NCBI RefSeq assembly: GCF_022811645.1
Contig: NZ_CP094534.1
Coordinates: 1,736,001-1,800,000, forward strand
Reading direction: 5' to 3'
From: Hymenobacter monticola
Lineage (GTDB): Bacteria > Bacteroidota > Bacteroidia > Cytophagales > Hymenobacteraceae
DNA length: 64,000 nucleotides
Shown here: positions 24,352-28,203 of the stretch, piece by piece
Layout of the letters: every line of letters begins with the position of its first letter
Position numbering within the stretch: position 1 is the first letter of the stretch
The notes under the pieces: model-generated
Seen by the model: only the letters and a program-made list of their open reading frames with translations
Database searches by the model: none
Told to the model about the DNA's origin: nothing
Made by a program: the position numbers and the translations under genes

Positions 24352-24618
24352 ATGTACGTATCCACTAGCACCGCTCACCACACGCCCACCATCGAGCAGC
24401 AGGTTTTCCGCATCATCAGCAAGCGCAAGGCCATCCGGGCCAGCCGCGTGCGCAAAACCGCCAGCCTCGCCCGCGACCTGCGCTTCGACACCGTCGACGT
24501 GGTCGACATCATCCTCGAGCTGGAGCGCAACTTCAGCATCACCATCCCCGACGAAGTGCCCCTCACCACCGTGGGCGATTTCGTGCGCTACGTGCGCGAG
24601 CACGCCGCCGCCGCTTAA
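24352..24618 (+). CDS. Acyl-carrier-like protein lacking the phosphopantetheine serine
   Basis: 88 residues. The second half follows the acyl carrier protein pattern closely (VVDIILELERNFSITIPDEV, then TTVGDFVRYV), but the DSLD motif that carries the 4'-phosphopantetheine arm reads DTVD: Thr47 in place of Ser, codon ACC at 24490-24492. The N-terminal half is basic (ISKRKAIRASRVRK) and unlike a normal ACP. It may be an ACP-derived scaffold or regulator rather than an acyl carrier; if Thr can be modified the role could be retained. It stands alone, 129 bp after the RND gene and before a bidirectional terminator. Confidence 0.8.
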   Translation: MYVSTSTAHHTPTIEQQVFRIISKRKAIRASRVRKTASLARDLRFDTVDVVDIILELERNFSITIPDEVPLTTVGDFVRYVREHAAAA

Positions 24619-24722: not shown

Positions 24723-25604
24723 TTAGCGCACGTTGCCACCCGAGTCGAGGCGGCCGGCGTCACTTTCGTTGCGGCTGCCTTCCCAGGTGCGCACCGTGGC
24801 GCCGCTGGTGTCGCCGGTAGGCTTCATATCATCGCCTTGCGTGTGCACCGGGGCCGGGCTGCTACTCTCGGGCGAGCCCAAGCCGGAGTCGGTGTTCGAC
24901 TGTTGGCTGGAAGAATTAGTGTGCGACTCGGGGTGGGTGCCGTGCTGCTTGGCTGACTCAGCGGCGGGCTGGGGCGTGGAAGGATGCTGGTTATCAGGGT
25001 TCGAGTCAGTGCCGGAGGCTTTATTTGCAGTGGCTGGGTTGTCACTGGTGCCGGCATTTTTAGCCGACTCGCGGGCGGGCTGGGCGCGGTCCTCGTCGTA
25101 GTTGATGGGCGTCAGGCCGCCCATCGACGCGGCGGCGTTTTCGGCAGCAGCTTTATCGGTATTGCCAGCTACCACCGGGCGCGTCAGCTCCCACTCGTTA
25201 AACCTGTCCATCTCGTGCTTGAGGGTAGTTGAGAACCAGGCCACCAGGGCCACGTCGTCGAGCAGGCCCAGCACCGGAATGAAGTCCGGAATCAAGTCAA
25301 TTGGGCTCAGGAAATAGATGAGCACGGCCACCGCAGCCGCCACCGTAGTGCCGGGCACGCCGGTGTACTCACCCGAAATCGACGCCTTGATGAGCCGGAA
25401 CATGGTCTGGAGCGTTTCCCAGGCTTCGTGGGCCAGCGTGCCTACTTCGTTCTTCTGGCTAGCTTTCTGGTAGGCGTCCGTCAGCAGCTTTTTCATGCGC
25501 GTGGGCTGCTTGATGTAGCCCTCGGCGGTGCTGAGAAATTTCTTAAAAAAGGCCGAGCCGGCCACGTCGTTGCCGGAAGGCGGGGTTTGTTGATTTTGAG
25601 CCAC
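24723..25604 (-). CDS. DUF1232 (YkvA-like) membrane protein with disordered tail
   Basis: 293 residues. Residues about 85-135 are a DUF1232 domain with the typical YFLSPIDLIPDFIPVLGLLD and DDVALVAWF; the hydrophobic stretch before it could span the membrane. The family has no settled function. The C-terminal 130 residues are low-complexity (Ser, Asn, Gln, Ala, Thr, Pro rich; SNTDSGLGSPESSSPAP), likely disordered and much longer than in usual family members. Single gene ending at a bidirectional terminator. Confidence 0.85.
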   Translation of the reverse strand: MAQNQQTPPSGNDVAGSAFFKKFLSTAEGYIKQPTRMKKLLTDAYQKASQKNEVGTLAHEAWETLQTMFRLIKASISGEYTGVPGTTVAAAVAVLIYFLSPIDLIPDFIPVLGLLDDVALVAWFSTTLKHEMDRFNEWELTRPVVAGNTDKAAAENAAASMGGLTPINYDEDRAQPARESAKNAGTSDNPATANKASGTDSNPDNQHPSTPQPAAESAKQHGTHPESHTNSSSQQSNTDSGLGSPESSSPAPVHTQGDDMKPTGDTSGATVRTWEGSRNESDAGRLDSGGNVR

Positions 25605-25852: not shown

Positions 25853-27028
25853 TTAGTTTTCAAATACCTTCACCACGAACACGTAGTCCTGCAGCTTCTT
25901 CAGCTGCTGCGGACGGGCGGCACCGGTCAGCTGGTTCGATTTGGGCAGGCGGTAGGGCGTTGCGGGCTGGGTGTTGCGCAGCGAATCCACGAGCCGCACC
26001 AGGTACGACGACTTGGTGGCGAAGGAAGTGCCTTCCAAGTCATTCTGCCGGGCATTGATAACCCCAATCAGATTGCCCTGCGCGTCGAGCAGCGGCCCGC
26101 CCGAGTTGCCGGGGTTCACCGGAATGCTGATTTGGTAAGCCGCCGTGTCGCCTTCGAAGCCCGAGCGCGCGCTCAGGGAGCCTTCGCCGTACACCACGTC
26201 TTCACGCGGGTAGCCCAGCGTAAACACCCGCTCGCCCAGGTCGGCCTGGCCAGCTTTGAAGGTGTAGGGCAGGCGGCCGAAGCCGGTGAAGCGCTTGTCG
26301 GTGATGCGCAGAATGGCCAGGTCGTGGGCTTTGTCAGAATACACCGGCTCGACGCGGTAGCGCTGCCGGTCGCGTCCCTCCACCTGCAGTGAATCGGCTC
26401 CTTTGATAACGTGGTAGCTCGTTACTAGATAGCCTTCCGCCGTCAGAGCGAAGCCCGTGCCGCCAAACTTGCCGTCCTTAAAAGGCGGCGGCAACACCGT
26501 TTTGCCGTCGATGCGCTCAATGGTGCGGTTGAGGGCCCGCTGGTTTTGTTTAAGGTTGTTGATTTCGCGGCGCATCCACTGAATGGAAGCCGGCGCCTGC
26601 ACCTTCGAACTGCGCCAGATGTCCAGGCCCAGGAGCGTGGCAAACACGGCCATCACGGCCACCGAGGCGGCCACGCCCACCGTGGCGCGGTGCCCGCTCC
26701 AAAACTCGCGCAGCTTGCGCTCGGTGCGCGAGATGCGCAGCATCGGGTTCACGGTGTGGGTGAAGGGGCTGGCTTTTTCGGCCACGGGCGCTTCGGTCGG
26801 GGCCTCGGCGGTCAGCATGGCGGCGTGAATGCCGCGCAGCTGCTCACGCGTCTGCTGGCGCTGGCGGTAGCCGCGCAGCGTGCCGGTCAGCTCCTTGAAG
26901 TCGGCGTAGCGCAGGGCAAAGTCCGGGTCGGCCGCCAGGCGCGCTTCGAGGCTGGTGCGGGCGGGCCCGGCCAGCTCGCCGTGCGAGTAAGCTTCAAATA
27001 AGGCGTAATAGTCTGCTTCAGTCATCAT
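25853..27028 (-). CDS. Membrane protein: anti-sigma-like head fused to trypsin-like (HtrA-type) serine protease
   Basis: 391 residues in three parts. Residues 1-75 resemble the short N-terminal region of Bacteroidota anti-sigma factors (helical, DYYALFEAYSHGELAGPAR, then RLAADPDFALRYADF). Residues 116-138 are a single membrane segment. From about 185 there is a trypsin-like domain with the complete triad: His206 in TSYHVIKG, Asp236 in AHDLAIL, Ser309 in NPGNSGGPL. No PDZ domain is present. The predicted topology puts the head in the cytoplasm and the protease in the periplasm. It lies directly downstream of an ECF sigma factor gene, so it may sense envelope state and control that sigma factor. 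The anti-sigma assignment is inference from context and composition; the protease is clear. Confidence 0.85.
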   Translation of the reverse strand: MMTEADYYALFEAYSHGELAGPARTSLEARLAADPDFALRYADFKELTGTLRGYRQRQQTREQLRGIHAAMLTAEAPTEAPVAEKASPFTHTVNPMLRISRTERKLREFWSGHRATVGVAASVAVMAVFATLLGLDIWRSSKVQAPASIQWMRREINNLKQNQRALNRTIERIDGKTVLPPPFKDGKFGGTGFALTAEGYLVTSYHVIKGADSLQVEGRDRQRYRVEPVYSDKAHDLAILRITDKRFTGFGRLPYTFKAGQADLGERVFTLGYPREDVVYGEGSLSARSGFEGDTAAYQISIPVNPGNSGGPLLDAQGNLIGVINARQNDLEGTSFATKSSYLVRLVDSLRNTQPATPYRLPKSNQLTGAARPQQLKKLQDYVFVVKVFEN

Positions 27029-27072
27029 GGGGTAAGCCTGCCGGTGGGAGCGGCAGCGGTAAGCGGAGGAGT

Positions 27073-27167
27073 AGTTAGTGATAAGTATTAAGTAGTGAGA
27101 CGCATGACGAGTTGGGAGTGCTAATCAGTCCTAACAACATCTCACTACTCAATACTTATTACTAACT
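27073..27167. repeat. Inverted repeat between sigma factor and protease genes
   Basis: 28-bp arms (27073-27100 and 27140-27167) match at 26 positions around a 39-nt loop. The arm begins 2 bp after the sigma factor stop codon, so the hairpin fills the junction of the two cistrons. It is AT-rich and unlike the other repeat families in the window. Confidence 0.85.
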
Positions 27168-27168
27168 G

Positions 27169-27777
27169 CTAAATAGGCTCTTCTTTATAATGGGCAAAGA
27201 ATAGTTTTTTGAGGCGCACGAGGCACTTGTATTTCTGGTTTTTGGCATTGTCGGCGTTGGTGTAGCCGAATTCTGCCGTGAGGTCCTGCATCGACTTGTC
27301 GTGCAGGTAGAAGCCTTCCAAAAGCGAACGACAAGGCTCCCCCAGGTGGTTCAGGGCCTCGCTCATGGTGGTGAAGCGGCGGTCCTGTTCCTCGGCGGCC
27401 AGCACGTCTTCCTCGGCCCCCGTGTTGAGGTAGGGGCCGTGCTCCTCGTCGTCGAGCAGGCGCACGCCAAAGCGGCTTTTGCTCGTGAGGCGCTTCAGCC
27501 ACAGGCGGCGGCACACGGCGTAGAGGTAGGTTTTAATCTGGCAGCTCAGCTCCAGGGAGTTGTCGCGCACCTTTTCATAAAACACCATCACGCCCTCCTG
27601 GTACACGTCCTGGGCGTCGTCTTCGGAGCCGCTGTTTTGCAGCACGAAGTGCGACACCATGGGCCAGTGCAGCCGGTAGAGGTGGGCCAGCGCCCGCTCA
27701 TCGCCGGAGCGAATGGCGGCAATCAGCGCATCGTCGGTAGGAGTCAAAGAAGAGGAAGTTGGATTGCCCCTGCTCAT
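27169..27777 (-). CDS. ECF-type RNA polymerase sigma factor
   Basis: 202 residues. Region 2 covers about residues 15-90 (ALAHLYRLHWPMVSHFVLQ, DDAQDVYQEGVMVFYEKV, QIKTYLYAVCRRLWLKRL); region 4 lies near 140-195 (LGEPCRSLLEGFYLHDKSMQ, DLTAEFGYTNADNAKNQKYK). It directs RNA polymerase to an envelope or stress regulon. The gene is followed by the membrane protease with an anti-sigma-like head, a usual arrangement for a sigma factor and its controller, but with a 95-bp inverted repeat between them. Confidence 0.92.
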   Translation of the reverse strand: MSRGNPTSSSLTPTDDALIAAIRSGDERALAHLYRLHWPMVSHFVLQNSGSEDDAQDVYQEGVMVFYEKVRDNSLELSCQIKTYLYAVCRRLWLKRLTSKSRFGVRLLDDEEHGPYLNTGAEEDVLAAEEQDRRFTTMSEALNHLGEPCRSLLEGFYLHDKSMQDLTAEFGYTNADNAKNQKYKCLVRLKKLFFAHYKEEPI

Positions 27778-27912
27778 TCACTTTGGGAGTTAATACGAAT
27801 GTGGGCGCCAAGTAACCCGCCGAAAAAATATTTTTCTGGGCCGGGTTACCTTTTCAAAAGGGCCGAATAAAGGGCGTTTTTAAGTTAACCCATTTTCAAA
27901 ATTACCCCCAAA

Positions 27913-28203
27913 ATGAACAACCTGTTCAAAGTTGCTGCCCTGGGCCTCGCCCTGACCGCTGGTCTGACCTCGTGCGAGTCGAAGAAGACCGAAGAGACCA
28001 CCATCGAGACCCCGGCTGCTGGCACCGAGACGACCACCACCACCACCACCGACAGCACCGCTATGGCTGCTCCGGCTGCTGACGCTACGGCTGCTCCGGC
28101 TACCACCGAAGGTGCTGCTGCTCCCGCTGCTGGCGCTACCACCGAAGGCGCTACCACCGCTGGTACTACCACCACCACCACGACCACCGAAGCTCCTAAG
28201 TAG
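27913..28203 (+). CDS. Small Thr/Ala-rich lipoprotein
   Basis: 96 residues. The signal sequence ends in a lipobox (GLTSC, Cys near 21). The mature part is almost wholly Thr, Ala, Pro, Glu and Gly, with runs of threonine coded largely by ACC. No domain is visible; such low-complexity lipoproteins may be surface spacers and possibly O-glycosylated. It is transcribed away from the ECF sigma factor gene 135 bp upstream, and ends before a terminator. Confidence 0.75.
   Translation: MNNLFKVAALGLALTAGLTSCESKKTEETTIETPAAGTETTTTTTTDSTAMAAPAADATAAPATTEGAAAPAAGATTEGATTAGTTTTTTTTEAPK

Follow-up and report, generated by a model that had tools for sequence, protein, structure and literature searches.

Within a 64,000-nucleotide window of the Hymenobacter monticola genome (contig NZ_CP094534.1, positions 1,736,001 to 1,800,000), a gene for an extracytoplasmic function (ECF) sigma factor is followed by a gene whose product joins an anti-sigma-type head to an HtrA-type serine protease. 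The pairing of the two genes in relatives is far beyond chance, the catalytic triad of the protease is conserved, and conserved promoters upstream of the sigma gene are associated with a small divergent lipoprotein gene. We read the locus as an envelope-stress module in which an anti-sigma factor carries a protease as its own ectodomain and probably makes the first cut itself, a reading to which we assign a probability of roughly 0.5.

The sigma factor and fusion gene pair

27169..27777, minus strand: ECF sigma factor gene, 202 residues, with Pfam and NCBIfam matches and an orthologue upstream of the fusion in 178/181 relatives
25853..27028, minus strand: anti-sigma / HtrA-type protease fusion gene, 391 residues

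Both genes were found where the first-pass annotation had placed them (27777-27169 and 27028-25853, minus strand), with the fusion downstream of the sigma gene across a gap of 140 base pairs. The claim that an ECF sigma gene lies directly upstream of the fusion was confirmed by this spacing and by matches of the sigma protein to Pfam Sigma70_r2 (34.1 bits, cut-off 24) and, over residues 29-191, to the NCBIfam sigma70-ECF model TIGR02937 (59.6 bits, cut-off 42.9). A separate region-4 match was absent in Pfam at E ≤ 1, and the score against TIGR02985, the Sig70_bacteroi1 subfamily, was 34.1 bits, under the curated cut-off of 126.4. The fusion protein consists, in order, of a helical head, one membrane helix, a heptad stalk and a PDZ-less HtrA-type serine protease.

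A single copy of the fusion was present in 119/120 Hymenobacter genomes at 61-100% identity, and in the order 109/291 genomes contained a protein matching it at E ≤ 1e-20. When 345 genomes of the class were searched with a profile, the scores fell into two humps. The upper hump (50 genomes among the matches listed) scored at least 295 bits with matches spanning the model, in G147 only from position 35; the lower hump, at most 215 bits, covered the protease part only. Host genera among the best 80 of 558 relatives were Hymenobacter, Solirubrum, Adhaeribacter, Rufibacter, Botryobacter and Pontibacter. Among 395 genomes of the phylum, the sole match at E ≤ 1e-60 labelled outside the class was L317, a headless protein without an upstream sigma open reading frame (ORF). 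It and three further headless proteins with a related protease (L067, L086, L091) were rejected as members, as all have a hydrophobic signal-peptide-like start and no upstream sigma ORF; L086 starts 67 bases from a contig end and its upstream side is not visible.

After deduplication on the last 330 residues, 181 distinct proteins scored at least 295 bits, including one split gene (L162) and three truncated heads. These are the exceptions to a profile match that began within the first 20 positions in 177/181. Under a rule that accepted any same-strand sigma-profile ORF ending from 200 bases inside to 600 bases before the fusion open frame, an orthologous sigma ORF stood just upstream in 178 of the proteins, and the other three (L078, L088, L189) lie at contig ends with 1, 153 and 1 bases of room, respectively. 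Conservation of the gene pair, which the first-pass annotation had set beforehand as half of its refutation test, was thus upheld. The sigma frame ended between -65 and 248 bases from the fusion open frame; the two frames overlapped in 73/178 pairs, and in L093 the sigma stop codon and the fusion start codon overlap. For residue-level comparison, a 42-row alignment was built from 7 genus representatives and other loci, leaving out L054 (split), L059 (a double), the headless L067, L086 and L091, and L078 (contig edge).

The split gene belongs to genome G079 (L054/L162), where the fusion is broken at the membrane helix: one ORF covers the head and a second the membrane helix plus the protease, with a four-base overlap between the two matches. 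This is either a natural split or a sequencing error.

The sequence between the sigma and fusion genes (27073-27167, minus strand) was predicted to fold into a hairpin whose stem comprises 30 base pairs and a single mismatch (-53.4 kcal/mol, z -8.0). Apart from a 24-base match elsewhere, this DNA is single in its own genome. The close relative L004 has a hairpin at the same place with different arms (z -3.6), and in L005 the intergenic hairpin is not marked (z -1.5). The hairpin might set the ratio of sigma to anti-sigma factor.

Head, membrane segment and protease of the fusion protein

26729..27028, minus strand: putative helical anti-sigma-type head, residues 1-100, helical nature and cytoplasmic side predicted
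26621..26689, minus strand: membrane helix, residues about 114-136, from hydropathy and column composition
26510..26584, minus strand: heptad pattern, residues 149-173, from column composition; probable coiled-coil stalk
25979..26470, minus strand: trypsin-like HtrA-type protease, residues about 187-350, from Pfam, PDB matches and alignment
26411-26413, minus strand: catalytic His206, from alignment
26321-26323, minus strand: catalytic Asp236, from alignment
26102-26104, minus strand: catalytic Ser309, from alignment
25856..25978, minus strand: conserved C-terminal tail, residues 351-391, in place of a PDZ domain, from Pfam and alignment

For the head, a family profile performed much better in searches than the single head sequence of the window. 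Of 26 diverse heads, 18 had a match to the NCBIfam "anti-sigma factor" model NF052375 at E ≤ 0.1, the best at 2.6e-6; 9 matched a putative anti-sigmaE model and 4 matched zf-HC2. The whole fusion protein of the window scored 18.8 bits against the NCBIfam "anti-sigma factor" cut-off of 100. Run over its own genome, the head profile matched, besides the fusion, six places at E values of up to 1.6, each closely preceded by a same-strand ECF sigma ORF. This was the strongest test of the head. On grounds of homology we read the head as a probable anti-sigma domain, with putative sigma binding. The resemblance to anti-sigma N-termini asserted in the first-pass annotation held for the family profile.

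The six places differ in what accompanies the head. L213 encodes a head-membrane-TPR-like protein about 200 bases after its sigma ORF; the locus (G000:C1:1305120-1305747, L208 and L213) reads as an ECF sigma factor, then a head, a membrane helix and a weak TPR match, and L213 would represent another type of anti-sigma ectodomain. L215 is an 89-residue head-only protein beside the nearest paralogue of the sigma factor (G000:C1:1516064-1516819, L205 and L215). It matches the head profile at positions 29-70, the same part that is kept in the truncated heads, a membrane helix is not evident, and it is possibly a soluble mini anti-sigma factor. From their sequences, L214 was labelled RskA-like and L217 a CxxC zinc-finger-like protein with repeats. 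L216 encodes 82 residues, and L218, the weakest match (E 1.6), was seen in one of two head-profile analyses.

The helix at about residues 45-75 is the part of the head retained even where it is truncated. The three truncated heads (L068, L093 and L303) keep the equivalent helix and the membrane helix. Despite the truncation, these loci retain the sigma gene and the divergent lipoprotein gene; either the remaining helix suffices or the head has another role there.

Two other assignments of the head were considered. A zinc-binding anti-sigma (ZAS) domain, for which the motif Hx3Cx2C is given in the available passages of a survey (PMC7406223), was rejected since the window protein has no cysteine; cysteine is likewise absent from 23 of the 42 aligned proteins, among them that of the window, and just 4 contain two. 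No RsgI N-terminal domain was among the Pfam and NCBIfam matches of the fusion at E ≤ 1.

Between head and protease the fusion has one strong hydrophobic segment (19-residue window from position 117, mean hydropathy 2.31), in agreement with the single membrane segment described from the first reading of the sequence. Within this helix A120 and A121 are present in 181/181 proteins, and position 122 is S, A, T, G or C in 180/181. Downstream, a heptad pattern in 3-4 spacing comprises columns 149, 152, 156, 159, 163, 166, 170 and 173; over the 181 proteins, columns 149, 152, 156, 159, 166 and 170 are at least 90% hydrophobic, 173 is 63% hydrophobic and 163 is polar. Judging from column composition rather than from a dedicated predictor, residues 149-173 probably form a coiled-coil stalk. 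HtrA proteases are trimers, and for this reason the stalk is read as trimeric.

The protease half matched Pfam Trypsin_2 at residues 190-323 (E 2.6e-25, 90.3 bits, cut-off 27.6), and its closest relatives in the PDB are HtrA proteases, up to E 3e-17. The His206/Asp236/Ser309 triad, reported as intact in the first-pass annotation, was correctly placed; its residues are invariant in 42/42 aligned proteins, and the triad is intact in 181/181 distinct relatives. Because of this invariance we consider it highly likely that the protease is catalytically competent. No PDZ domain was matched in the fusion by Pfam at E ≤ 1, and about 40 residues follow the protease. Assignment as a DegS or DegP orthologue was rejected on the missing PDZ domain and on NCBIfam DegP/DegS matches under the equivalog cut-offs, and the fusion is best described as carrying an HtrA-like protease domain rather than as DegS or DegP. 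MarP is a redox-controlled protease; a MarP-like assignment was also rejected, as the MarP match was under the NCBIfam cut-off and the window protein lacks cysteine.

In its own genome the fusion has no second complete copy, and two other proteins (L002, L003) carry a related protease domain. Elsewhere in the class, genomes such as G506, G683 and G170 encode proteins with open frames of about 340-920 residues and a better-matching protease domain (about 135-215 bits, compared with many matches near 95 bits). The matches near 95 bits we take to be ordinary HtrA proteins.

Promoter pair, divergent lipoprotein gene and predicted regulon

27790..27818, minus strand: sigma-type promoter GGGTTAC-N15-GTATTAA, 12 nucleotides before the sigma ATG; one match in the window, 0.02 expected
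27843..27871, plus strand: divergent promoter copy GGGTTAC-N15-GAATAAA, with two -10 box mismatches in H. monticola
27913..28203, plus strand: divergent small lipoprotein gene, 96 residues, lipobox LTSC, Cys21; predicted sigma target

The promoter pair and the divergent lipoprotein gene are new relative to the first-pass annotation. Alignment of 88 distinct upstream regions from the genus resolved the conserved blocks into GGGTTAC, 15 bases and GTATTAA. The distance from the end of the -10 box to the sigma ATG is 12 bases in 13 of 14 Hymenobacter sites and 13 bases in the remaining one, and because it is so short the sigma transcript is probably nearly leaderless. GTAACC or GGTTAC occurred within 200 bases before the taken start in 75/75 loci, all but three of them from other genera, against 4.7 expected from shuffles that preserve base composition only. 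In a set of 91 loci that includes duplicates (L068 and L194 represent one stretch) and that came from other genera except for three of Hymenobacter (L158, L162, L171), the rule used found a forward promoter copy in 73 and a reverse copy in 59. With any start within 300 bases accepted, each of the 59 reverse copies found beside sigma genes has a gene behind it for a lipoprotein of 58-113 residues. The 96-residue lipoprotein of the window matched no Pfam family at E ≤ 1 and no NCBIfam family at E ≤ 0.01.

An alternative view of the same DNA, in which the inverted repeat GGTAACCC...GGGTTAC upstream of the sigma gene would be the operator of a dimeric regulator, was dropped because each half has a -10-like box of its own behind it, at a constant spacing of 15 bases, and then a gene start.

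With one mismatch allowed, 67 sites for GGGTTAC-N15-GTATTAA were found in 24 genomes. The 16 genomes of the genus had 47 sites, and the reversed motif had 8 in the same genomes. Beyond the genus the motif, with 20 sites, was no more frequent than its reversed control, with 23, so there it is informative only through what follows it. Each site was assigned to a class by the first gene to follow it within 250 bases, lipoprotein genes being those with a lipoprotein signal. All 67 sites comprised 18 before sigma genes, 33 before lipoprotein genes, 8 with no gene and 8 with other genes, and the 47 within the genus comprised 16, 28, 1 and 2, respectively. In genomes that bear the fusion, 51/60 sites precede a sigma or lipoprotein gene; none of the 7 sites from genomes that lacked it in the search of the order (G121, G124, G125, G126) precedes either. 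For the reversed-motif control, lipoproteins followed in 0/29 cases forward and 1/29 backward (1 in 58 directions), 29 of 31 hits having been classified, as one was without a locus and one was identical to another. A 54-site subset looked cleaner; of the remaining 13 sites, 2 preceded sigma genes, 2 lipoprotein genes and 5 other genes, and 4 had no gene behind them. Among relatives, the motif also preceded the gene of a vWF-A lipoprotein and, in Hymenobacter as well as in one member of a different family of the order, genes for DUF4349 lipoproteins. We predict, as highly likely, a regulon made up of the sigma factor's own operon and small lipoprotein genes, with GGGTTAC-N15-GTATTAA as the promoter.

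Downstream of the fusion lie a gene for a DUF1232 protein (24723-25604) and an ORF judged acyl-carrier-protein-like from its look only (24352-24618).

Proposed mechanism, alternatives and known systems

In the proposed mechanism, the head very probably tethers the ECF sigma factor to the inner membrane, as homology and gene pairing suggest. The membrane helix and the coiled-coil stalk would hold the protease domains in the periplasm, probably as a trimer like other HtrA proteins. An envelope signal, plausibly a mislocalised lipoprotein or a misfolded protein, would engage the protease, which would then act as a built-in site-1 protease by cleaving, close to the membrane, either the chain it belongs to or a neighbouring one; for this step we would put the odds a little short of even. 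A site-2 (M50) protease, of which the genome encodes two homologues, would cut the membrane helix, and the freed sigma factor would switch on its own operon together with a group of small lipoprotein genes. More tentatively, and in our view rather unlikely, the sigma factor, the anti-sigma protease and the divergent small lipoprotein would form one lipoprotein-surveillance module across the class. The lipoprotein would be both response product and probe, and a copy that failed to reach the outer membrane would engage the HtrA ectodomain, leading the trimer to cut itself beside the membrane and release sigma. Were this so, a site-1 protease and an anti-sigma factor with its own reporter substrate would reside in one polypeptide.

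Several results weigh against the envelope-stress reading. The counts of K and R on either side of the membrane helix are equal (3.8 vs 3.9), so the inside-positive rule does not fix the topology; the head-inside orientation was adopted because the head is read as anti-sigma. On the side of the regulon, the divergent promoter copy of the window has the two -10 box mismatches given above, the strict motif has only two sites in the genome of the window, the second before a gene for an 83-residue lipoprotein, and of the 60 sites in genomes that bear the fusion, 9 precede either no gene or one that is neither a sigma nor a lipoprotein gene. No conserved cleavage site was seen in the linker of the 181 proteins, which is 35-55 residues long. 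This would suit a fusion that is an anti-sigma factor whose protease serves as a response effector on other envelope substrates, sigma being freed by a separate site-1 protease or by protein-protein release. Fusion and shared operon would then tie the enzyme level to the response, the invariant triad fits this account, and L002 or L003 could supply the site-1 protease. That account, possible and on the unlikely side, does not explain why head and protease have stayed in one chain in 180/181 relatives (three of the heads truncated), the exception being the one split gene. A domain acting purely as a binding sensor, in which a ligand would drive a conformational change and catalysis would be unimportant for signalling, has a precedent in RsgI9, an anti-sigma factor with an S1C-type ectodomain; passages of PMC12203970 describe cellulose binding and propose a binding role for the S1C domain. 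If the domain were a pure binder, loss of catalytic residues should have occurred in at least one lineage; none of the 181 proteins shows it, which makes this explanation improbable.

The head itself also presents difficulties. The profile search for anti-sigma domains proposed in the first-pass annotation gave the family matches described above and none for the window's own head, which alone matched nothing in NCBIfam or Pfam at E ≤ 0.1. Against the PDB the head profile found no anti-sigma structure better than E 1, the best being 3hug_B, which we take to be mycobacterial RslA. In one family of the order (L068, L093, L303) the heads lack the first ~40 residues. The missing library match and the truncations would fit a head that does not inhibit the sigma factor encoded beside it, acting for example as an activator or a mere membrane tether, with the pairing reflecting co-regulation. 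Set against this are the six other head-profile matches, six of six just downstream of ECF sigma ORFs, and the NCBIfam matches of the 26 diverse heads; we regard a non-inhibitory head as very improbable.

No description of an ECF anti-sigma/HtrA-protease fusion was found among the open-licence papers listed by literature searches, some of them with other aims, judging from titles, the openings of abstracts and passages; those of PMC9723704 and PMC12045153 contained nothing on the pair. Unusual anti-sigma ectodomains tied to NigD-type proteins are already published for Bacteroidota. The Dma1/Das1, Dma2/Das2 and EcfO/Reo systems of Bacteroidales likewise pair a Bacteroidota ECF sigma factor with an unusual anti-sigma factor; passages of these papers place NigD proteins under Das1 or EcfO control and liken those of EcfO to surface lipoproteins (PMC13088901, PMC13114119, PMC9308784). 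The Dma and Reo ectodomains end in an outer-membrane beta-barrel, in Dma after a long tether, whereas the fusion's is a protease; no such C-terminal barrel is present in its 391 residues, which end in the protease and the 40-residue tail. The Das sigma factors are called ECF21 in the text available. Closer at hand, ECF sigma / RskA-like or zf-HC2-like pairs in the same genome (L206, L217) show the same head-profile match downstream of sigma, with other ectodomains, none of which has the fusion's protease judging from the sequences. In a survey, as far as its available passages go, class I anti-sigma domains adjoin only 6% of Bacteroidota ECF sigma factors (PMC7406223).

The closest precedent is RsgI9 of Clostridium thermocellum, an anti-sigma-I factor (PDB 7sjy) that, like the fusion, has a membrane helix and an S1C/trypsin-like ectodomain, and whose structure matches the protease half of the fusion at E 1.4e-9. 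Autocleavage of its outer domain is reported in the passages seen of PMC12203970. RsgI9 differs, according to the same passages, in its RsgI-type N-terminus and in acting with SigI, without an ECF pair; it is an orphan without its own sigma gene and has an NTF2 domain (PMC12203970). The E. coli sigma-E system resembles the Hymenobacter locus in its parts: an ECF sigma factor, a membrane anti-sigma factor, an HtrA-family protease on the far side of the inner membrane, a site-2 protease and an envelope signal. In E. coli the sigma-E anti-sigma factor RseA, the HtrA-family protease DegS and the site-2 protease RseP are separate proteins. DegS is described, in the part of the source available, as an HtrA-family protease with a PDZ domain (PMC8103513). 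Where E. coli thus keeps RseA and a PDZ-bearing DegS apart, Hymenobacter has the two kinds of domain in one chain without a PDZ domain.

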